Virus record (IMG/VR): IMGVR_UViG_3300036715_001039
Coordinates: 1-39,108 of that record
Length of the DNA: 39,108 nt
Source: a virus
Direction: 5' to 3' (one strand)
Part shown: positions 10,087-28,732 of the stretch, piece after piece
How positions within the stretch are numbered: the first letter of the stretch is position 1
Layout of the letters: each line of letters opens with the position of its first letter
The notes under the pieces: generated by a model
The model's input: the letters and a program-made list of their open reading frames with translations, nothing else
Database searches by the model: none
Told to the model about the DNA's origin: nothing
Position numbers and translations under genes: made by a program

Positions 10087-10344
10087 ATGAACACATGGGA
10101 CGAAAAAAATTACATAGAACCAAAGAAGAACTTCTTGAAAAGCAACGGGCTAGAGCCAAAAGATACTATGAAAAACATAGAGTTAGGCTCAACAAAGAGC
10201 ACATGCAGAGGTATTGGAAAAAAACATCCAAAGACAAAAACCCAAAGTAAATTTATAGAAGACTCTATAAAAAAGCACGGAAATCGGTATGATTATTCGA
10301 GAGTTCATTATACAAACTCTCACACAAAGATACAGATTTATTAA
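10087..10344 (+). pseudogene. Remnant of a DUF723-type homing endonuclease in the +1 frame
   Basis: The frame opened by ATG 10087 runs through the MGRK gene in the +1 frame. After the MGRK portion it encodes SKFIEDSIKKHGNRYDYSRV followed by HYTNSHTKIQI, ending TAA at 10342-10344. That segment matches the start of DUF723-type endonuclease repeats (FI.kA...HG.kYDYSkv.Y.N..tkv.I). The rest of the enzyme is absent, cut off at the Pif1-like helicase gene. This is probably the fossil of an endonuclease that once occupied the cassette. Confidence 0.5.
10095..10250 (+). CDS. MGRK-family small basic protein
   Basis: A 51-residue, very basic protein: MGRKKLHRTKEELL, then QRARAKRYYEKH, RLNKEHMQRYW and a Lys-rich tail. 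AGAGG sits 8 bases upstream. Comparison with the copies at 13527 and 15293 shows mostly synonymous changes in this frame (Leu, Arg, Tyr and Asn codons), so this frame is under selection and not the overlapping MNTWDEKNY frame. It may bind DNA or RNA. It resembles the basic segments found at the start of phage homing endonucleases, but no known domain is recognised. A remnant endonuclease follows in the +1 frame. Confidence 0.65.
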   Translation: MGRKKLHRTKEELLEKQRARAKRYYEKHRVRLNKEHMQRYWKKTSKDKNPK

Positions 10345-12054: not shown

Positions 12055-12698
12055 AACCAAGTCGTATATTCATAATCAGGCACGGCCAATCGTTGGCCAA
12101 TGCCGACATTAACACTCATGCTACTATTCCGGATTGGAAGGTTCCCCTTACTAAATTGGGTATCAAACAGTCTCAAGAGGCTGGGGAATATATTGCCGAA
12201 CAGATTGGTAATGAAAAATTAGGTGTCTATGTTTCCCCTTTTCTTAGAACAAAAGAAACTTGGAATAACATGTCGGTAAACATTCCGGGTGCTTGTATTG
12301 CCTTTGAAAAAGAAGACCCGCGCCTTCGTGAACAAGAGTGGGGGCACCTAAGAGTGGCTGAAGAGTATGATGGTATTGAAAAAGAGCGAGATGCCTACGG
12401 CCCATTTTTCTATCGCATACCGGATGGAGAGTCTGGCGCTGATGTGTATGACCGTTGCACCGGCTTCTTGAGCACTATTTACCGAGACTTCAAGAAAGAT
12501 GACTGCCCTGAAAACATCCTTATCGTGTGTCACGGCTTCACCATGAGAGTTCTTCTCATGCGTTGGTTCCACTGGACGGTGGAACACTTTCACAATCTCA
12601 GAAACTCAAGAAATTGCCAGATAGTAGAAATTGCGCAGAATGAGAAGGGCCGATTCGAAATAGTAACACCTTGGCCCCTAAAAACAGAACAACAATGA
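12051..12698 (+). CDS. Histidine phosphatase superfamily (phosphoglycerate mutase-like)
   Basis: A 215-residue protein. The catalytic motif RIFIIRHGQSLAN (RHG at residues 10-12) is complete. VSPFLRTKET gives the second conserved Arg, DPRLREQEWG the acid/base Glu, and IVCHGFTMR the second catalytic His. These enzymes remove phosphate from sugar phosphates, other metabolites or proteins. In this cluster it could dephosphorylate a sugar precursor. Both ends overlap neighbouring genes by 4 bases, so it is probably coupled to the GT2 downstream. Confidence 0.85.
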   Translation: MKPSRIFIIRHGQSLANADINTHATIPDWKVPLTKLGIKQSQEAGEYIAEQIGNEKLGVYVSPFLRTKETWNNMSVNIPGACIAFEKEDPRLREQEWGHLRVAEEYDGIEKERDAYGPFFYRIPDGESGADVYDRCTGFLSTIYRDFKKDDCPENILIVCHGFTMRVLLMRWFHWTVEHFHNLRNSRNCQIVEIAQNEKGRFEIVTPWPLKTEQQ

Positions 12699-13486
12699 AT
12701 ACAAAAACAGCCGCTATCATTCTCAACCACAACTTGCCGGAATACACTGATATGCTCTTTGAGTCATTGAAGCCTTATGAACGTAATGATTATGAACTAA
12801 TGGTATTTGACAACGGTTCATCCAAGGATGGGCAGAGCAAATATACAACACATGGAATAGAGAAGAATGTTTACTTCGGCGGCGGATTCAATGCTGCGAT
12901 GCAAATGGTCATCGACAACCCGACATATGACTCAATGTTGTTTTTGAACAATGATTTGACCATACATCCATATAATTTTGTGAGGATATTACGTGCAGAA
13001 ATGTTTGGCTTCACATTTAACAGAAAAGAAGACCCGGAAAACTATCAAAAAAATCCTCAGTGTGACCTCATTTCTCCAAGCTTTTATAATGTAGAACCAA
13101 ATAAACAATGTCACTGGAAAACTATGCATGGTTATGGACAGGTGACAAGAGAAGTTCCATTCATAGATTTTCAATGCCCACTGATTTCGAAGAGACTTCT
13201 TGAAGAAGTAAAAGAAATACATCCGAGTTTGATAATGGGATTTGGTATAGATTTTTTGTTTGCTTTAACGTGCCAAGACAAAGGTTGGAAAATAAAAGTA
13301 AGTGACCTTGTGGGTATTATTCATCACAATTCAATGACAGTTAAAAAGGGCGTGGCGGGAATAAACATTCAAGAATATTGTCAAAGGGCCGAAGCTGGCC
13401 AATATGAATTCTTTCACAACATTATAAAAAGATCGAAAGATTATTTGGAATTGAGAAATAAAGCAGAAAATTATCAGTTTCCGTGA
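12695..13486 (+). CDS. Glycosyltransferase family 2 (rhamnosyltransferase-like)
   Basis: A 263-residue protein. The ATG at 12695 overlaps the upstream TGA. TAAIILNHNLPEYTD begins the GT-A fold, YELMVFDNGSSKDG follows, and NVYFGGGFNAAM plus LFLNNDLTI (D of the N-N-D motif) are classical of the GT2 subgroup acting in O-antigen and capsule synthesis. The C-terminal IIHHNSMTVKKG also fits. It ends 40 bases before the second MGRK cassette. The sugar is unknown. Confidence 0.82.
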   Translation: MNTKTAAIILNHNLPEYTDMLFESLKPYERNDYELMVFDNGSSKDGQSKYTTHGIEKNVYFGGGFNAAMQMVIDNPTYDSMLFLNNDLTIHPYNFVRILRAEMFGFTFNRKEDPENYQKNPQCDLISPSFYNVEPNKQCHWKTMHGYGQVTREVPFIDFQCPLISKRLLEEVKEIHPSLIMGFGIDFLFALTCQDKGWKIKVSDLVGIIHHNSMTVKKGVAGINIQEYCQRAEAGQYEFFHNIIKRSKDYLELRNKAENYQFP

Positions 13487-13515: not shown

Positions 13516-13526
13516 AGGATGAACAC

Positions 13527-13664
13527 ATGGGACGAAAAAAATTACATAGAACCAAAGAAGAATTGCTCAAACTGCAACGTGTTAGAGCCGGACGATATTA
13601 TGACAAACACAAAATACGTCTTAATCGGGAAAGAATGGATAGATATTGGAGAAATAAAAAATAA
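13527..13664 (+). CDS. MGRK-family small basic protein
   Basis: A 45-residue paralogue of the 10095 protein: MGRKKLHRTKEELLKLQRVR, then RYYDKH, IRLNRERMDRYWRNKK. It differs from the 10095 copy largely by synonymous codons. No endonuclease is recognisable after it: the +1 frame stays open from 13519 to 13743 but its product resembles nothing I know. It may be a cassette that lost, or never had, an endonuclease. Function unknown; high positive charge suggests nucleic-acid binding. Confidence 0.6.
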   Translation: MGRKKLHRTKEELLKLQRVRAGRYYDKHKIRLNRERMDRYWRNKK

Positions 13665-13678
13665 CGTGAAGAAATACA

Positions 13679-13777
13679 ATGGAACAATCAATGAATTTAT
13701 CAACGTCCGTAACCTTGGAGAAAAATACGATGGAACAACTTGAATTTAACATGCAACCAAGCCGAGAAGGAGAGTAG
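13679..13777 (+). CDS. Possible 32-residue peptide
   Basis: ATG 13679 opens 32 codons (MEQSMNLSTSV...NMQPSREGE) ending TAG directly before the ATG of the next gene at 13778. AAGGAG lies inside its last codons and serves that next gene. No strong ribosome-binding sequence precedes this ORF, so it may be a leader for coupling or simply chance. Confidence 0.25.
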   Translation: MEQSMNLSTSVTLEKNTMEQLEFNMQPSREGE

Positions 13778-14088: not shown

Positions 14089-14364
14089 ATGACTATAAAG
14101 GAATATGAAGCATTGTGGAAGGACTGCCCGCCGTGCCCATTTGCGGTGGGAGATCGTGTTACATTTAAGAATGAGTATGAGAATTTTACCCATGACCAGG
14201 GTGGATGGGTGTTTGTTCAGGTGCTACTTCGCAGGAGAAATCTTTCATTCTTGACCATTTCCAATGTGAACGGTATTTACATATGCTTCAAGGAAGTCCA
14301 AGAAATGTTCGACTCCTCATCAGGCGGCTTTTCCTATGTTCCATTTAAGCTTATTCAAACATGA
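14089..14364 (+). CDS. Hypothetical protein, 91 residues
   Basis: A 91-residue protein. The central part FAVGDRVTFKNEYE and GGWVFVQVLLRRRNLSFLTI suggests a small beta-barrel of the SH3/KOW type, which often binds nucleic acid or protein, but no family was recognised. It overlaps the GT2 start downstream by 4 bases, so it is expressed with that gene. Confidence 0.6.
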   Translation: MTIKEYEALWKDCPPCPFAVGDRVTFKNEYENFTHDQGGWVFVQVLLRRRNLSFLTISNVNGIYICFKEVQEMFDSSSGGFSYVPFKLIQT

Positions 14365-15242
14365 ACTACACTTGGGCCATCAACACATACAAAAACTTAT
14401 CATACCTCAAGTTGGCAATTGATTCTATTCGTAGAAATGCTTTCGACAAAACCGCTGATATTGTGGTGTATGTAGAGAACGACCAAGAAACGGCTGAGTG
14501 GTTATCTCAACAAATGGATATTCTTCCTGTCATTGAGTATAACGATGTGCCAAAGGGTATTGGCGGCGGGGTCAATAAAATTATAGAACAGATTAAGACT
14601 CCTTACTTCAGCCTCATTCACTCAGATATGTATATCAGCAAGGACTATGATAAAGGTCTGATTGAGTGTTACCAACATACCAAACTTGACCACGGCGTTC
14701 CTTACTTCGTTAGTGCCACCCGCATTGAGCCAAATATCTTCGGACCCTATCAAACCTCTCGGCCAGGAACCATAGTGGTTCCAAAAGAAGCATTTGGTGA
14801 GTTTCATCACAACTTTGATATGACCGGATTTACTGGTTGGGCGGAAGAATTTGTCAAGATTAACTCAGAGTCCTTACATCGCAAGTTGGAAGGTGTGTCT
14901 TACTTCGGTAAAGTAGAAGACTTCCTCAAGACAGGTGGTAACGACCCTCTCTATGCCCCGGCGTCATTCGAGGATCATGATTTGACCATCCGTATGATGT
15001 GTATGGGTTATGAGTTTGTCACTACAAACCAGGCGGTCGTCTATCACTTTGGAGCAAGAGGTAGTATTTTTAGAGACGACAACCTTAGCATAAGACATCC
15101 AAGACAAATTAAGGCTGAGGCTGATAATAAAGAAAAGTGGATGAAAAAATGGGGCGAGATGTTCACTGAAGATGAGGTTGGTTTTATTAAGTTGACTCCC
15201 ACCCTGCGAAAGAGATACAGTGAGATTTACAAGAATTGTTGA
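14361..15242 (+). CDS. Glycosyltransferase family 2
   Basis: A 293-residue protein. MNYTWAINTYKNLSYLKLAIDSI opens the GT-A fold. FSLIHSDMYISKDYD carries the metal-site acid (H-S-D-M) shared with the GT at 16288 (FHSDMVCG). FVSATRIEPNIFGPY also matches VSATRIEPEGIYPP of that protein, so the two are paralogues flanking an endonuclease cassette. The end VVYHFGARGS fits this subgroup. Specificity is unknown. Confidence 0.8.
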   Translation: MNYTWAINTYKNLSYLKLAIDSIRRNAFDKTADIVVYVENDQETAEWLSQQMDILPVIEYNDVPKGIGGGVNKIIEQIKTPYFSLIHSDMYISKDYDKGLIECYQHTKLDHGVPYFVSATRIEPNIFGPYQTSRPGTIVVPKEAFGEFHHNFDMTGFTGWAEEFVKINSESLHRKLEGVSYFGKVEDFLKTGGNDPLYAPASFEDHDLTIRMMCMGYEFVTTNQAVVYHFGARGSIFRDDNLSIRHPRQIKAEADNKEKWMKKWGEMFTEDEVGFIKLTPTLRKRYSEIYKNC

Positions 15243-15284: not shown

Positions 15285-16295
15285 ATGAACACATGGGACG
15301 AAAAAAATTACACAGAACCAAAGAAGAGTTGCTTGAACTCCAACGAGCCAGATCAAAACGATATTATGAGAGACACAAGAAACGACTCAGCGAAGAACAG
15401 ATGCGGCGATACTGGATTCAAAAAAGAGTGGAAAAGAAAATGTCCAAAATGTAAAAAAGATACATTTCATACTACAAAGAGGGTGGCTTTTAGGTCAAGG
15501 GACAAATTGTGTCATAGTTGTGGACTAGAAAAAGGAAACGCCACAAGAATCAAAAATTTTTCAAAAAAGCCTTCTCCAACAAAAGATCAACTTTCGTGGA
15601 AATGTCCGAATTGTTTCAAAGAGATAGTATGTTCCGACATGCATTATAAAAAATATTTGGTTAGAAATAACAAAACATGTAAAGCTTGCACTTGGAAAAA
15701 TAAAATAGGAAATGAAAACTATCTCAAGCGAAAATGCCCCCAGTGCGGAGACGATATTTTATACGCAAACAGAAGAAATCGAACGGTGTGTGTTCGAAGA
15801 AAAACGGTGTGTAAACAATGTCAAAATATAAATTGTTCTAAAAAATTGAAAGGGGTGTCACTGGAAAATCGATTGGGAAAAAATAAAGCAATTAAAATGA
15901 GAAAAAAACAATCGAACTCTTTGAAAGGACTGAGAAAATCCGATGATTGGAAGAAAAAAGCCAGATTTCGTAGATGTGAAATGATCCAGCAGAGTATGGG
16001 AGGTGGACCAGCATACAACATAAAATCCTGTGTATATTTGGATGAACTGTCTAACAAGAGAGGATGGAATTTACAACATGCCAAAAATGGTGGTGAGGTT
16101 GTTGTAGAGGGATATTTTGTAGATGCGTATGATAAAAAAAGAAACATAGTTGTTGAATACGACGAGCCACATCACTACCTCGGAGTAATATTAAAACAAA
16201 AAGACATTGACAGAATGAACAAAATAATACATCATTTAAAATGTAAATTCTACAGATACAATGAAAAAGTTAATAAATTAATAAGATATGAATAA
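15285..16295 (+). CDS. Zinc-ribbon homing endonuclease, Vsr/PD-(D/E)XK-like
   Basis: The frame is open for 336 codons from ATG 15285 and overlaps the whole MGRK gene in the +1 frame. Endonuclease-like sequence starts near residue 45, so an inner start is possible, for example the ATG at codon 28. Three zinc ribbons of CxxC...CxxC type span residues about 53-79, 107-135 and 151-179. The C-terminal domain reads VVVEGYFVDAYD, VVEYDEPHHY and KDIDRMNKIIHHL, the E-D-x-H-D layout of Vsr-like homing nucleases. It lies between two paralogous GT2 genes and its stop overlaps the start of the second by 8 bases. It probably cuts an empty site in related phages to spread the cassette. Confidence 0.75.
   Translation: MNTWDEKNYTEPKKSCLNSNEPDQNDIMRDTRNDSAKNRCGDTGFKKEWKRKCPKCKKDTFHTTKRVAFRSRDKLCHSCGLEKGNATRIKNFSKKPSPTKDQLSWKCPNCFKEIVCSDMHYKKYLVRNNKTCKACTWKNKIGNENYLKRKCPQCGDDILYANRRNRTVCVRRKTVCKQCQNINCSKKLKGVSLENRLGKNKAIKMRKKQSNSLKGLRKSDDWKKKARFRRCEMIQQSMGGGPAYNIKSCVYLDELSNKRGWNLQHAKNGGEVVVEGYFVDAYDKKRNIVVEYDEPHHYLGVILKQKDIDRMNKIIHHLKCKFYRYNEKVNKLIRYE
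15293..15454 (+). CDS. MGRK-family small basic protein
   Basis: A 53-residue paralogue: MGRKKLHRTKEELLELQRAR, SKRYYERHKKRL, EEQMRRYW, then a Lys-rich tail. The start sits 8 bases after GGGG and 8 bases after the competing +1-frame ATG. It is fully nested inside the open endonuclease frame, so this DNA may code for two proteins. Amino-acid conservation with the 10095 and 13527 copies is in this frame. Confidence 0.6.
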   Translation: MGRKKLHRTKEELLELQRARSKRYYERHKKRLSEEQMRRYWIQKRVEKKMSKM

Positions 16296-17496
16296 TATCG
16301 TTGACAATATTTCTCTTATAATTCCGTCATACAATACTCTCGAGTATTCGAAAATGGCCTATACAAGTTTGAGAAAATATTATTCAAACTTGGAAATACT
16401 TGTAATGGATGATGGATCAACGGATGGAAGTATTGAATTTTTCAAACAAATTTCTCTAACCGACAAAAAATTAAAATTGTGGATAAATTCAACCGGAAAT
16501 ATATTTGGCCATTGTGTAACCTATGATATGGGTATTGACCTAGCCACAAACGATATTGTCACAATTTTTCACAGTGACATGGTTTGTGGTAAGAACTACC
16601 TTGAGAATATGTTGAAGCACCTCAAACCAAAGACGGTGGTGTCTGCCACACGTATTGAGCCTGAGGGTATCTATCCTCCGGGACGCGAAAAAATCCTCAA
16701 GCCATTTGGTATGGTGCACAATGAGTTCAAGCAAACAGAGTTTGATGAGTTCGTGGCGATGGAACAGATAAAGAACAAAGACAAGACCACCAACGGCATC
16801 TTTGCTCCGTGGATGATTCACAAGATTGACTTTCTTGCTATCGGTGGCCATGACGCCAAGAGTTTCGCTCCATACCCTGAGGAGGACGCCGACCTGTTCT
16901 TACGATTTGCTCTTGCCGGTTATACCCTTGTTCAAAGCTGGGATGCTTTTTGTTGGCATTGGATTAGCCGAGGACACCGTAGTTGGGCAAAAAATGGTGT
17001 AGGCCATGACGATGACATGTTTCAGTTCTATCAAACTAGAGCTCGCAGAAACTATCTTCGTAAGTGGAACCGTTGGATGGCTTTTGATGCTGACCATCAT
17101 CCGGTAGGCTTTCCGGTCTATCGTGTTGGCTTCGTTTTGAAAAACGTTACCACCGTTGACTTTCTTCACGCCATTGAACCTTGGGCGCAGCACATCTACG
17201 TTGACAACATGATGTGCGCTGAAAAATACATCGCTTCGGAACAGCCGACGACAAAAATTAAGCTCAGTGACCGTATTTTGAATCACGGATACATTGATAA
17301 AATGGGAGACGAAATTCTTCTAACTTTTAGTCAAGATGAATTTATGAAAGATGCTTATCAGCACCTAAATGTTATACAAAATCTTAATTCGATACTAACG
17401 GATTCAGCAGAGTCTAATAGCGAAGCTCAACTTGGTATTTTTCACCTTAAGACGTTGAATATCACTGACTATAGTAGCACATTAATCAAAGTCTGA
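16288..17496 (+). CDS. Glycosyltransferase family 2, long form
   Basis: A 402-residue protein. NISLIIPSYNTLEYSKMAYTSL and ILVMDDGSTDGSIEFF are textbook GT2 motifs. IVTIFHSDMVCGKNYLENML supplies the metal-site acid. A second conserved acidic patch EEDADLFLRFALAGY precedes FCWHWISRGH, a likely catalytic and acceptor region. About 120 C-terminal residues have no recognised fold. It is paralogous to the 14361 enzyme. No membrane segment is present. Sugar and acceptor are unknown. Confidence 0.83.
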   Translation: MNNIVDNISLIIPSYNTLEYSKMAYTSLRKYYSNLEILVMDDGSTDGSIEFFKQISLTDKKLKLWINSTGNIFGHCVTYDMGIDLATNDIVTIFHSDMVCGKNYLENMLKHLKPKTVVSATRIEPEGIYPPGREKILKPFGMVHNEFKQTEFDEFVAMEQIKNKDKTTNGIFAPWMIHKIDFLAIGGHDAKSFAPYPEEDADLFLRFALAGYTLVQSWDAFCWHWISRGHRSWAKNGVGHDDDMFQFYQTRARRNYLRKWNRWMAFDADHHPVGFPVYRVGFVLKNVTTVDFLHAIEPWAQHIYVDNMMCAEKYIASEQPTTKIKLSDRILNHGYIDKMGDEILLTFSQDEFMKDAYQHLNVIQNLNSILTDSAESNSEAQLGIFHLKTLNITDYSSTLIKV

Positions 17497-18655: not shown

Positions 18656-18811
18656 TTGACATTTTTTAAACCGTATATCCCGCAAGTTTTCGTATCTTTC
18701 TTTTGATTTTTTTCTATAGTATTCTGCATTTTTCCAATAAGTTCGCATTCTCCATTTACATTTTCTTTCACGTTTTTGTTCTTCTGTTAAATTATGTGAT
18801 TTTCTTCCCAT
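18614..18811 (-). CDS. MGRK-family small basic protein, second subfamily
   Basis: A 65-residue basic protein on the minus strand: MGRKSHNLTEEQKRERK, CKWRMRTYWKNAEYYRKKSK, then a basic tail. It is close to the protein at 24667-24828 (MGRKSHNLTEEQKR, RMRSYWKNA) and forms a second MGRK subfamily. No endonuclease follows. The upstream sequence contains GATATTTATG rather than the full TATACTTATAG. It extends 42 bases into the end of the plus-strand gene. Either a young insertion or a cassette without its nuclease. Confidence 0.5.
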   Translation of the reverse strand: MGRKSHNLTEEQKRERKCKWRMRTYWKNAEYYRKKSKERYENLRDIRFKKCQSNIFDASFIQTVC

Positions 18812-22298: not shown

Positions 22299-22874
22299 TT
22301 ACTTTCCAGTCGAACCAAAACCACCGCCGCGGTCTTCACCTGGTAAATTATCAACTACCTCGAAGGTGATTCCATTTGTGACTATCGGCAAGAGCTGGCA
22401 AATTTTATCCCCCTTCTTGTATATTTTTGACATATCTGGAAGTCCCTTTATATCTCCGAAACGACTTGCTCTAAGGTCACAAGGTTGCCAAATATACTTA
22501 AACCGAACAAGTATTTGATTTTTGTATCCTCTGTCGATAAGTCCGATGGAATTGGCCAGAACCAAATTATATTTGGAGATACTCGAACGTGGACGTAAAT
22601 CTGTGTGGAAGTTTATTAAGTCAGAGTATCCAGCGTAGGGAGAATATTCTATAGCTTGGGGTGTGGGTGTGACATAAAGATTTGTTTCGAACTCAACATA
22701 GGTTATACTATAATATTCGCCAATTCTCTGATCATCAAAGGTTCCGAAATCAGACTTTGTTCCGACAATAGCGGGTTCGCTTGTGGCAGTTACGTCATAA
22801 CCCGCATCAGTTTCGTTTGCACGATTTGGAACAATTAATCCCTCAACATTCTTTAGATAGTATTTTACGTTCAT
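22299..22874 (-). CDS. dut: dUTPase
   Basis: A 191-residue deoxyuridine triphosphatase. The ATG at 22874 overlaps the upstream TGA (ATGA), so it is preferred over the in-frame ATG at 22892. The trimeric dUTPase motifs are present: ETDAGYDV (1), RPRSSISKY (2), NSIGLIDRGYKNQ (3), GDKICQLLP (4) and RGGGFGSTGK (5). It is longer than the usual 140-150 residues, with extra sequence between motifs 1 and 2. It hydrolyses dUTP to dUMP and keeps uracil out of DNA. It is coupled to the GMP-reductase-like gene. Confidence 0.92.
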   Translation of the reverse strand: MNVKYYLKNVEGLIVPNRANETDAGYDVTATSEPAIVGTKSDFGTFDDQRIGEYYSITYVEFETNLYVTPTPQAIEYSPYAGYSDLINFHTDLRPRSSISKYNLVLANSIGLIDRGYKNQILVRFKYIWQPCDLRASRFGDIKGLPDMSKIYKKGDKICQLLPIVTNGITFEVVDNLPGEDRGGGFGSTGK

Positions 22875-23959
22875 AGTGTTCTTACTCCCCATTCAGAGTT
22901 TAGTAGTGACCCGCCGGCGTATGATATAGCACTTTGTAAGTCTTCCTCAATTTCAGAAAGTTTTTCTTCGCAAGTCCAACGGTCAATAGGAAGTTCAATA
23001 CGAGTTCCTTCGATATGGTGAATACTGTGAGTGTTGTCTTCGGATGCTGAGCCATAGTAAATCTTTGCGATAGGAAATTTTTCATGTCTTCCGCCAAGCA
23101 GTCCATTACTAAAGCCGTCTCCATAAATGGTTTCGGCCGGACTATCCTTGGTAGCAGCGAACAAACCCCCAGCCATGACCATAAGAGCTCCAGCTGCTAT
23201 AGCTTTAGCAATATCTCCATTGGTTCTAATACCACCGTCAGCGATAATTGGAACCATTGTAGGTATAAGCGTATTTTCGGCTTGAGTCTTTTTTCGCCAA
23301 CCCATATTTACCCGAGAGCAGTTTTGAACCGTGGTGAACATTGGAGAACCAAATCCGGTTTTTCCAAACGTAGTGCAAGCTCCTCCTTGAGCAATACCAA
23401 CCTTCACGATGTTAGCTCCCCAGCTAGACAAATCATACACCGCTTCGGAAGTTGACACGTTACCTGCGATGATAGAAGGCCGATACCCAACAGGTCCAGC
23501 GGAACTCCATATGGAAAACTCTGGGCCACTACCAATAATAGCTTTAAATTCTAATTTACGAATAAATTCAAGCATCTCTTTCATACCAATACTATGTCCA
23601 TGTGCGACATCAATGGTGATGAAATCTATCCGATACTCTGCATTGATACATTTACGTAAAAGTTCCTTGTCTGAGTCCTTTATACCAACGCTGATACTAA
23701 TAGTCTTCCATTTTTCAATATTTGCCTGAGATACGAATTTGAAGGTATCCGTGAAACGGTGCATGATATAAAAATAGTCATTATCGCTCATCCATTTGGC
23801 TCTATCGGTATCAATGACGCATTTCATGTTAGCGGGAACAATGGGTAGTTTAAATTTTCTACCCCCCATTTCTATAAGTGTCGATGCTTGATTACGCGAC
23901 TTGAAGGGGGAGAACTTGGGTTTAAGAAAAACCTCTTGATATGAATAAAATTTGTCCAT
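22871..23959 (-). CDS. GMP reductase/IMPDH-family enzyme
   Basis: A 362-residue TIM-barrel protein starting MDKFYSYQEVFLKP; in-frame upstream codons (TTG 23977) are less likely. KVGIAQGGACTTFGKTG holds the catalytic Cys loop (Cys195) and IIADGGIRTNGDIAKAIAAGA is the phosphate-binding signature. AHGHS and AGNVSTSEA also fit. There is no CBS domain, so it looks more like GMP reductase (NADPH-dependent GMP to IMP) than host IMPDH. It could shift purine pools for phage DNA. Inserted sequence near residues 140-165 is unlike E. coli GuaC. Confidence 0.85.
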   Translation of the reverse strand: MDKFYSYQEVFLKPKFSPFKSRNQASTLIEMGGRKFKLPIVPANMKCVIDTDRAKWMSDNDYFYIMHRFTDTFKFVSQANIEKWKTISISVGIKDSDKELLRKCINAEYRIDFITIDVAHGHSIGMKEMLEFIRKLEFKAIIGSGPEFSIWSSAGPVGYRPSIIAGNVSTSEAVYDLSSWGANIVKVGIAQGGACTTFGKTGFGSPMFTTVQNCSRVNMGWRKKTQAENTLIPTMVPIIADGGIRTNGDIAKAIAAGALMVMAGGLFAATKDSPAETIYGDGFSNGLLGGRHEKFPIAKIYYGSASEDNTHSIHHIEGTRIELPIDRWTCEEKLSEIEEDLQSAISYAGGSLLNSEWGVRTL

Positions 23960-23990
23960 TACGACCACTATAAACAACCATCAAAAGATG

Positions 23991-24788
23991 TCAATCTATA
24001 ATAGACTCTCTTTTACGTTTTTCCCAAGAATTTTTTTGAGCAATAGACATGTTTTTACACCATTCTTTTGAGCGTTCTGGTCTTTTCTTTCCTTTCTGGG
24101 TATCCATCATTCTCCCCACTCTCCATTCGCTCAAAACAGATAAATTTTTATCGACCAATTTGTTCTCAACTCCGTTAGTAATCCAACGTTTTCCAAAACT
24201 AGGATTATCTTTTCCAATTCCTTTTTCTTTTCCAGACATTGATAAATTTTTTCTGTGTTCGTTTGAGAATTTGGATCGTTTCTTCCCCTTATGAGAAAGA
24301 GAAATTTTTCTCTTAGTTTCTTCAGAGTGTTTTCTTCCAGTTTGAGTCAGTGACATTTTTCTTCTGTGTTCTACTGTCAATTTTCTTCCTTTATTTGATT
24401 TCCCTGTTTCGGAACATCCGCCCTCTGTTAGATTGTAACCACTGTGAAAGGAGTCGTGGTATTTTATCCAATAAATCTCACGTAAATTCAACGTAACCTC
24501 ATCGATTATTCCGCTTTCAATAATAATTTTATCAAAATTGTCATATCCATACTTTATCAAAGCATTATAAATTTTTGGTTGTCTCTCACATCGCAAACAT
24601 TTATAATCACTCCACCTAGACGGAATATGATTTTTAGTTTTGCCTATATACCACTTTCCATTTATCTTACAACGAAGTCCGTAAATTCCCACCGTCTTTT
24701 TTGGTGTAGTATCGGTTAAGATTTGACTTTCGTTCTCTATCGGCATTTTTCCAATAGCTTCGCATGCGTTGTTCGTTGTGTCTGACAC
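23991..24788 (-). CDS. GIY-YIG homing endonuclease with NUMOD3 repeats
   Basis: A 265-residue protein on the minus strand. GIY at 34-36 and YIG at 47-49, with Arg58, make the nuclease core. The C-terminal part has NUMOD3 DNA-binding repeats (GRKLTVEHRRKMSLTQTGRKH, then similar). The start is GTG 24788, preceded by GGAGG with 9-base spacing, all inside the MGRK gene in the +1 frame. It sits between the GMP-reductase-like gene and a metallopeptidase gene. It probably makes a site-specific break in related genomes that lack it. Confidence 0.85.
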   Translation of the reverse strand: MSDTTNNACEAIGKMPIENESQILTDTTPKKTVGIYGLRCKINGKWYIGKTKNHIPSRWSDYKCLRCERQPKIYNALIKYGYDNFDKIIIESGIIDEVTLNLREIYWIKYHDSFHSGYNLTEGGCSETGKSNKGRKLTVEHRRKMSLTQTGRKHSEETKRKISLSHKGKKRSKFSNEHRKNLSMSGKEKGIGKDNPSFGKRWITNGVENKLVDKNLSVLSEWRVGRMMDTQKGKKRPERSKEWCKNMSIAQKNSWEKRKRESIID

Positions 24789-24828
24789 GTTTTTGTTCCT
24801 CCGTTAGATTGTGTGATTTTCTTCCCAT
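24667..24828 (-). CDS. MGRK-family small basic protein nested with the GIY-YIG gene
   Basis: A 53-residue protein: MGRKSHNLTEEQKRVRHNEQ, RMRSYWKNADRERKSNLNRY, then a short tail ending TAA at 24667. Its codons for Thr-Glu-Glu supply the GGAGG of the GIY-YIG gene in the +1 frame. The two frames overlap for about 120 bases. It is nearest to the 18614 protein. With TATACT ending 7 bases before its ATG the transcript could be leaderless. Confidence 0.55.
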   Translation of the reverse strand: MGRKSHNLTEEQKRVRHNEQRMRSYWKNADRERKSNLNRYYTKKDGGNLRTSL

Positions 24829-24830
24829 GT

Positions 24831-24841
24831 CTATAAGTATA
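24831..24841 (-). promoter_or_regulatory. TATACTTATAG promoter core (minus strand)
   Basis: The exact 11-base core seen at 10073, 13505, 15271 and 29308 occurs here on the minus strand, two bases before the MGRK ATG. A -35 box is weak (TGTAGT at 16 bases). Confidence 0.5.
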
Positions 24842-24926
24842 AGACAACGTGGTAAAAACTACATAAAAATCACATAAACAATATTTACGCCGACTTAATG
24901 TTTCTCTGTGATATTTATAGTGAACT

Positions 24927-28141: not shown

Positions 28142-28173
28142 CTTTGTATCGTTTTTGTATCGGTTACTTATAG
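28142..28173 (+). promoter_or_regulatory. Variant cassette promoter
   Basis: GTTACTTATAG at 28163-28173 is a one-base variant of TATACTTATAG with the ATG of the MGRK gene two bases after it. The upstream stretch contains a GTTTTTGTAT element similar to the GTTTTAT spacers of other copies. The -35 box is poor. Confidence 0.4.
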
Positions 28174-28175
28174 GT

Positions 28176-28337
28176 ATGGGAAGAAAACCACTACCACCAA
28201 AGGAACGACATGGACGAAAACTTCAATCAAGAATGCGCAGTTACTGGAAAAATGCCGATAAAGAACGAGCAGGAGGTTTACGACGTTACTACTCCACTCG
28301 TAGGCATCTACGGATTGCAGAACAAGCTCAAACCTGA
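28176..28337 (+). CDS. MGRK-family small basic protein nested with GIY-YIG
   Basis: A 53-residue protein: MGRKPLPPKERHGRKLQSRM, RSYWKNADKERAGGLRRYY, then a short tail. It shares the MGRK start and R-(M)RSYWKNAD with the 24667 protein. Its codons for Lys-Glu-Arg include AAAGGA, which can act as the ribosome-binding site for ATG 28210 of the endonuclease in the +1 frame. Confidence 0.55.
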   Translation: MGRKPLPPKERHGRKLQSRMRSYWKNADKERAGGLRRYYSTRRHLRIAEQAQT

Positions 28338-28732
28338 TAAGTGGTATATCGGTCAAAGTTTGGATATTTACAATAGATGGAAAAACGCATACTTAAAGTT
28401 GAAATGTAAGGCTCAACCAAAAATTTACAACGTAATACGAAAATATGGATATGATGCTTTCAATAAGATAGTGTTGGAGGAATGTCCCAAGGATAAACTG
28501 ATATTGTTGGATAGAGAAAATTATTGGATTTTTCAAAAAAATTCCATTGAGAACGGGTATAATCTGATAAAAGGAAGATGTTCATCTGGAGAAAGAACAC
28601 TCACCGTGAAAGAAAAAATTGGAAAGGCTCAGCTCGGAATAAAAAAATCATCAATTCGGGAAGAAACACAGCGAAGAAACTAAAGAGAAAATGAGATTGT
28701 CTCATCAACGTCGAAGACTTATTACAAGTTGA
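28210..28732 (+). pseudogene. GIY-YIG homing endonuclease, frameshifted in NUMOD3
   Basis: The ORF opens at ATG 28210 and carries GIY (32-34) and YIG (46-48), then DRENYWIFQKN and NGYNLIKGRCS, close to the 24.7 kb enzyme. It ends TAA at 28681 after 157 residues. In the next frame, from about 28658, GKKHSEETKEKMRLSHQ continues the NUMOD3 repeat to TGA at 28730. This means one base was gained or two lost near 28650. The nuclease domain is intact but the DNA-binding repeats are disrupted, so activity or site choice may be altered. Confidence 0.65.

Follow-up and report, generated by a model that had tools for sequence, protein, structure and literature searches.

Small viral MGRK reading frames appear to carry in their codons the start of an overlapping nuclease gene in the +1 frame

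Comparison of more than one hundred related viral sequences suggests that a small open reading frame (ORF), here called MGRK, and the nuclease gene that overlaps it in the +1 frame constitute a two-cistron mobile-nuclease cassette, in which two proteins would be made from two independent starts, probably on one mRNA; we give this reading a probability of roughly 0.8. According to this model, one short mRNA would encode both MGRK and a homing-type nuclease, the 5' end of the nuclease gene overlapping MGRK in +1, and each protein would have its own start. Comparative sequence evidence shows that the nuclease has a start signal of its own and that both frames of the overlap are maintained.

The window, an IMG/VR virus record analysed over its full 39,108 bases, was searched by tblastn for further MGRK ORFs, and it contains six of them (Table 1). 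A sequence-only reading had described a GTG start preceded at 9 nt by GGAGG, both formed by MGRK codons, with about 120 bases read in two frames, as well as an equivalent arrangement with AAAGGA at 28176/28210. These descriptions were confirmed: GTG 24788 is made from the MGRK codons CGT GTC, its overlap with the MGRK that starts at 24828 measures 122 nt, and ATG 28210 lies in +1. The same reading had counted four nuclease frames, all in +1. The +1 relation holds, with a +1 ORF or a remnant at all six MGRK ORFs, but long downstream ORFs are present at only three of them (15285, 23991 and 28210) and the other three have remnants only. GTG 24788 and ATG 28210 are presumed to be the exact nuclease starts, the alternatives being the ATGs at 24746 and 28252, which are also within MGRK.

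Table 1. MGRK ORFs, overlapping nuclease ORFs and associated signals in the window.
Feature	Position	Strand	Remarks
MGRK ORF, 53 aa	24667..24828	-	ATG 24828, stop 24667; reading frame 0; member of a family with 153 distinct headers
GGAGG, Shine-Dalgarno-like	24802-24798	-	formed by MGRK codons ACG GAG GAA (Thr-Glu-Glu)
GIY-YIG/NUMOD3 nuclease ORF, 265 aa	23991..24788	-	GTG start nested in MGRK, +1 frame
Promoter-like TATACTTATA	24832..24841	-	3 nt before MGRK ATG; putative function
MGRK ORF, 53 aa	28176..28337	+	ATG 28176
AAAGGA, Shine-Dalgarno-like	28199..28204	+	5 nt before ATG 28210
GIY-YIG nuclease ORF, 157 aa	28210..28683	+	ATG nested in MGRK, +1 frame
Promoter-like TACTTATA	28165..28172	+	before MGRK 28176; putative function
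MGRK ORF, 53 aa	15293..15454	+	entirely within 336-aa ORF 15285..16295
Putative nuclease ORF, 336 aa	15285..16295	+	+1 frame; ATG 8 nt upstream of MGRK ATG
MGRK ORF, 51 aa	10095..10250	+	with truncated +1 nuclease remnant, ORF 10087-10344, DUF723-like by eye
MGRK ORF, 45 aa	13527..13664	+	with decayed +1 ORF 13519-13743
MGRK ORF, 65 aa	18614..18811	-	with truncated GIY-YIG start in +1, GTG at 18771

Both nested nuclease ORFs match GIY-YIG (PF01541) above the gathering score (E 2.5e-6 for 23991-24788 and 3.2e-9 for 28210-28683), and the former also matches NUMOD3 (PF07460, E 7e-8) and the homing endonuclease PHROG 314 (E 8e-28). By their catalytic domain and by PHROG homing endonuclease families, the GIY-YIG ORFs of the window are predicted to be homing-type endonucleases. 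A NUMOD3-like stretch at 28652-28717 (+), HSEETKEKMRLSHQ, extends the 28210 nuclease in another frame, the two being out of frame from about 28650. Because this continuation sits in a different frame, the C-terminus of the 28210 nuclease looks frameshifted and is probably decaying. At 15293 the +1 ORF opens upstream of the MGRK ATG, so that this MGRK is wholly internal; the surrounding ORF has weak zinc-ribbon and DUF559-like matches (E 0.18 for DUF559). The window also contains several glycosyltransferase-like genes and an IMPDH-like gene (421-1119, 12671-13486, 14361-15242, 16288-17496 and 22871-23977).

Relatives were collected by scanning IMG/VR together with whole virus records, and removal of identical headers left 153 distinct ones, a number that misses any copy with a broken MGRK, as copies were located through the MGRK frame itself. 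An open frame of at least 60 codons beyond MGRK was found in +1 in 133 of these headers (three of them also in +2), in +2 only in two, in frame 0 only in two and in none in 16. Each MGRK was then recoded synonymously in 131 related headers. The +1 frame was open over codons 14-42 in 120 of the 131, compared with 63 expected from MGRK codon usage, a null that is itself biased by constraint, or 28 expected from nuclease codon usage, which served as the second null. Furthermore, a start codon was present in the open +1 run of 130 of the 131 copies (79 expected), and an ATG in 127 (67 expected); after clustering, 99 of 100 copies (59 expected) had a start at less than 75% nucleotide identity and 41 of 42 (27 expected) at less than 65%. 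These values argue for conservation of the nested start site and agree with the earlier claim that the arrangement is not due to chance. Only L264 lacks a start in the part of its open +1 run that ends at codon 43, and its +1 start lies just downstream. The starts fall at three sites, namely MGRK codons 10-14, a late position near codon 41, and 5-60 nt upstream of MGRK. In 56 copies, MGRK is preceded by an ATG in frame with the nuclease; where the +1 frame contains a late stop, an ATG lies beyond it, mostly at codon 41. The +2 frame was open over codons 14-42 in only 1 of the 131 copies, with 1-5 expected from recoding. Since +2 is closed in the other 130, a long overlap is practically possible in +1 only, and the uniformity of the +1 relation is explained by a +2 frame that is nearly always closed across MGRK, as the MGRK amino acids predict.

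Codon choice in MGRK was compared between copies with a codon-14 start and no upstream start (nested class) and copies with an upstream start and no codon-14 start. A Shine-Dalgarno (SD) match of at least 4 nt at the nested site was found in 21 of 34 nested-start copies versus 3 of 42 upstream-start copies. Lys10 is encoded by AAG, a synonymous change that produces AAGGA, in 17 of 29 nested copies compared with 2 of 26 in the other classes (p 7e-5; clustered p 0.001), these sequences being related and the p-values in this paragraph approximate. Similarly, Leu6 is TTA or CTA, often creating a +1 TAA, in 20 of 25 nested copies, and CTT or CTC in 31 of 35 upstream-start copies without a codon-14 start (clustered nested versus all upstream-start copies, p 1e-5); the upstream-start copies thus avoid the Leu codons that create a +1 stop. 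Together, the Lys10, Leu6 and SD patterns indicate that codon choice in MGRK tracks the +1 start in use. Against the reading of two independent starts, a good SD is missing at the upstream-start ATGs and at most MGRK ATGs.

Substitution classes in near-neighbour pairs point to the frame that is constrained as a protein. Substitutions silent in MGRK that change the nuclease occur at a relative rate of 2.4 times the average, and those that change MGRK at 0.5-0.6, whether or not the nuclease frame is altered. Because MGRK-altering changes are slow and MGRK-silent ones fast, MGRK appears to be selected as a protein, and the N-terminal extension of the nuclease would need only openness and a start. 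In +1 over the overlap, no constraint on the amino acids themselves was detectable, only openness, start and SD being kept. By substitution classes, openness, start and SD codon choice, both frames are nonetheless held against synonymous change, as in an overprinted pair.

In nested-start copies, the promoter-like motif TA[CT]TTAT ends ahead of the MGRK ATG at a median distance of 5 nt. In the GIY-YIG copies of the window, the MGRK ATG is the first start after this motif, and the nuclease would start 34-40 nt further in, its SD and its ATG or GTG being formed by MGRK codons. When the start lies upstream of MGRK, the nuclease ATG is most often the first one past the motif, and the order of starts would be reversed, with MGRK internal to the nuclease ORF. 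Both proteins would be translated from one mRNA, leaders at MGRK cassettes would be short or absent, initiation at the first start could be nearly leaderless, and the overlap presumably limits the level of the nuclease. The same motif occurs at 24912 and 27018 (+), 4-7 nt before other gene starts (24927 and 27030), a hint that very short leaders may be common in the phage of the window.

Alternatively, MGRK could be mainly a regulatory leader: its translation across the start of the nuclease would hold nuclease synthesis down, and the peptide as such would matter little. Ribosomes from the MGRK ATG, usually the first ATG past the motif in the nested class, would cross the nested SD, and in T4, overlap with an ORF upstream is believed to limit the homing endonuclease genes (PMC2988022). 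However, MGRK amino-acid conservation exceeds what a leader needs, the nuclease ATG precedes MGRK in the 56 copies mentioned above, and the nested site shows no inhibitory RNA fold, so we consider the leader explanation unlikely. A hairpin masking the nested SD was specifically rejected, the unpaired probability being 0.71 versus 0.72 in recodings.

The sequence-only reading had also taken the uniform +1 relation to suggest coupling or frameshift control. Programmed +1 ribosomal frameshifting late in MGRK would yield an MGRK-nuclease fusion, in keeping with a downstream ORF in +1 in 133 of 153 headers with the junction just past MGRK, and with the natural in-frame fusion in L073/L214. Such a frameshift, however, could do without a +1 start and without +1 being open across MGRK, yet both are conserved beyond synonymous expectation, and the downstream frame, expected in that case to lack a start, has its own in 130 of 131 copies, some of them upstream of MGRK. 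Furthermore, no shared slippery motif was seen by eye from MGRK codon 34 to the stop, and in three copies (L260, L270 and L281) the downstream ORF is in +2 with a 4-nt ATGA or GTGA overlap, which supports a two-gene order. In L014, L047 and L048, MGRK RYLR and nuclease GIYG are encoded by the same nucleotides; a shift would have to precede the end of the MGRK motif and thus could not join complete domains. The openness of +1, its own starts (also after clustering) and the +2 copies led us to reject frameshifting as the main explanation, which we regard as very improbable. With +1 practically the only frame open to a long overlap, and with the +2 minimal-overlap and RYLR/GIYG copies, frameshifting seems neither needed nor favoured. 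As for coupling, termination-reinitiation could operate in minimal-overlap copies, but not classically in those of the window, where the nuclease starts about 120 nt before the MGRK stop. In three copies where MGRK seemed to stand alone (L276, L281 and L283), a nuclease-like ORF follows that overlaps it barely or not at all.

That MGRK is no protein at all but a by-product of the 5' end of the nuclease gene, as its C-terminal tails past RYW, merely an alternative frame of the nuclease domain, and the weak SD at its ATG might suggest, is hardly credible, since amino-acid constraint over the overlap falls on the MGRK frame and not on +1, MGRK is retained in copies whose nuclease begins at codon 41 or only beyond MGRK, and L073 joins it in frame to a nuclease.

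Among 114 downstream +1 proteins scanned, about half (54) matched GIY-YIG and 51 NUMOD3; the remaining matches, single or few, were to HNH, LAGLIDADG_3, DUF559, DUF723, Vsr, phage endonuclease I and several zinc-ribbon types. Headers that are 83-85% identical in nucleotides carry different nucleases (GIY-YIG in L035, a zinc ribbon in L016; likewise L057/L059, and L280/L279 in one genome). This comparative evidence shows shuffling between headers and nuclease domains, and it points to recombination of unrelated nuclease families behind a shared 5' module. In L073/L214, MGRK is fused in frame within a protein of 351 aa, with three DUF723-type repeats (by eye) and a C-terminal nuclease, and this fusion suggests that MGRK and nuclease may work together. 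In L065, the MGRK ORF (114 aa) runs on without a change of frame through a zinc ribbon to the C-terminal part of a nuclease, and is probably an internal deletion derivative.

MGRK is predicted to be a small basic protein with about 42 conserved residues, and seems to represent a family that annotation misses. It has no Pfam match up to E 1, a best PHROG match at E 0.5, and neither a PDB sequence match nor a Foldseek match; no credible MGRK was found among 50,697 isolated phage records (best E 0.6), and in GTDB genomes it occurs on one MAG contig, perhaps phage. Similarity to the YY-K-N-K repeats found in HNH nucleases reached only E 0.02, and no relation is claimed. The AlphaFold model predicts helices at residues 10-27 and 29-45 (mean pLDDT 84, pTM 0.45), and our best guess is a basic two-helix protein that would bind DNA and partner the nuclease. 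More tentatively, MGRK could be an exchangeable module for expression and DNA binding, shared by a family of phage cassettes: nucleases of unrelated fold would have it as their common subunit (or repressor) and swap behind it, with frame and nested start preserved.

The arrangement was not found in searches of the openly accessible literature. With more than 100 distinct natural copies, MGRK cassettes offer a testable system for nested initiation, the start signal of one gene being visible in the synonymous sites of a second. The closest parallels are the free-standing seg and mob genes of T4-like phages, which are likewise GIY-YIG or HNH cassettes, some with their own promoter, and several of which overlap an upstream ORF, with expression limited at translation (PMC2988022). 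The T4 homing endonuclease genes overlap unrelated host genes by only 1-24 bp and are thought to be kept low by translation (PMC2988022), whereas the overlap in MGRK cassettes extends from about 120 nt up to the small ORF in its entirety, and always involves the same small ORF family, common to several nuclease families. Intron endonucleases of the I-TevI type likewise combine GIY-YIG with NUMOD3-type DNA-binding parts and have a promoter near the gene start; I-TevI is controlled by an RNA hairpin over its ribosome binding site (PMC2988022), a fold not seen in MGRK cassettes. Lastly, overprinted viral genes and operons with ATGA overlaps also place two functional frames in one stretch of DNA, and a few MGRK copies have the classical ATGA or GTGA overlap. 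The MGRK family differs from both in its long same-strand overlap, with the start signal nested at a fixed place, and in the presence, within one family, of a second architecture with the reversed order of starts.
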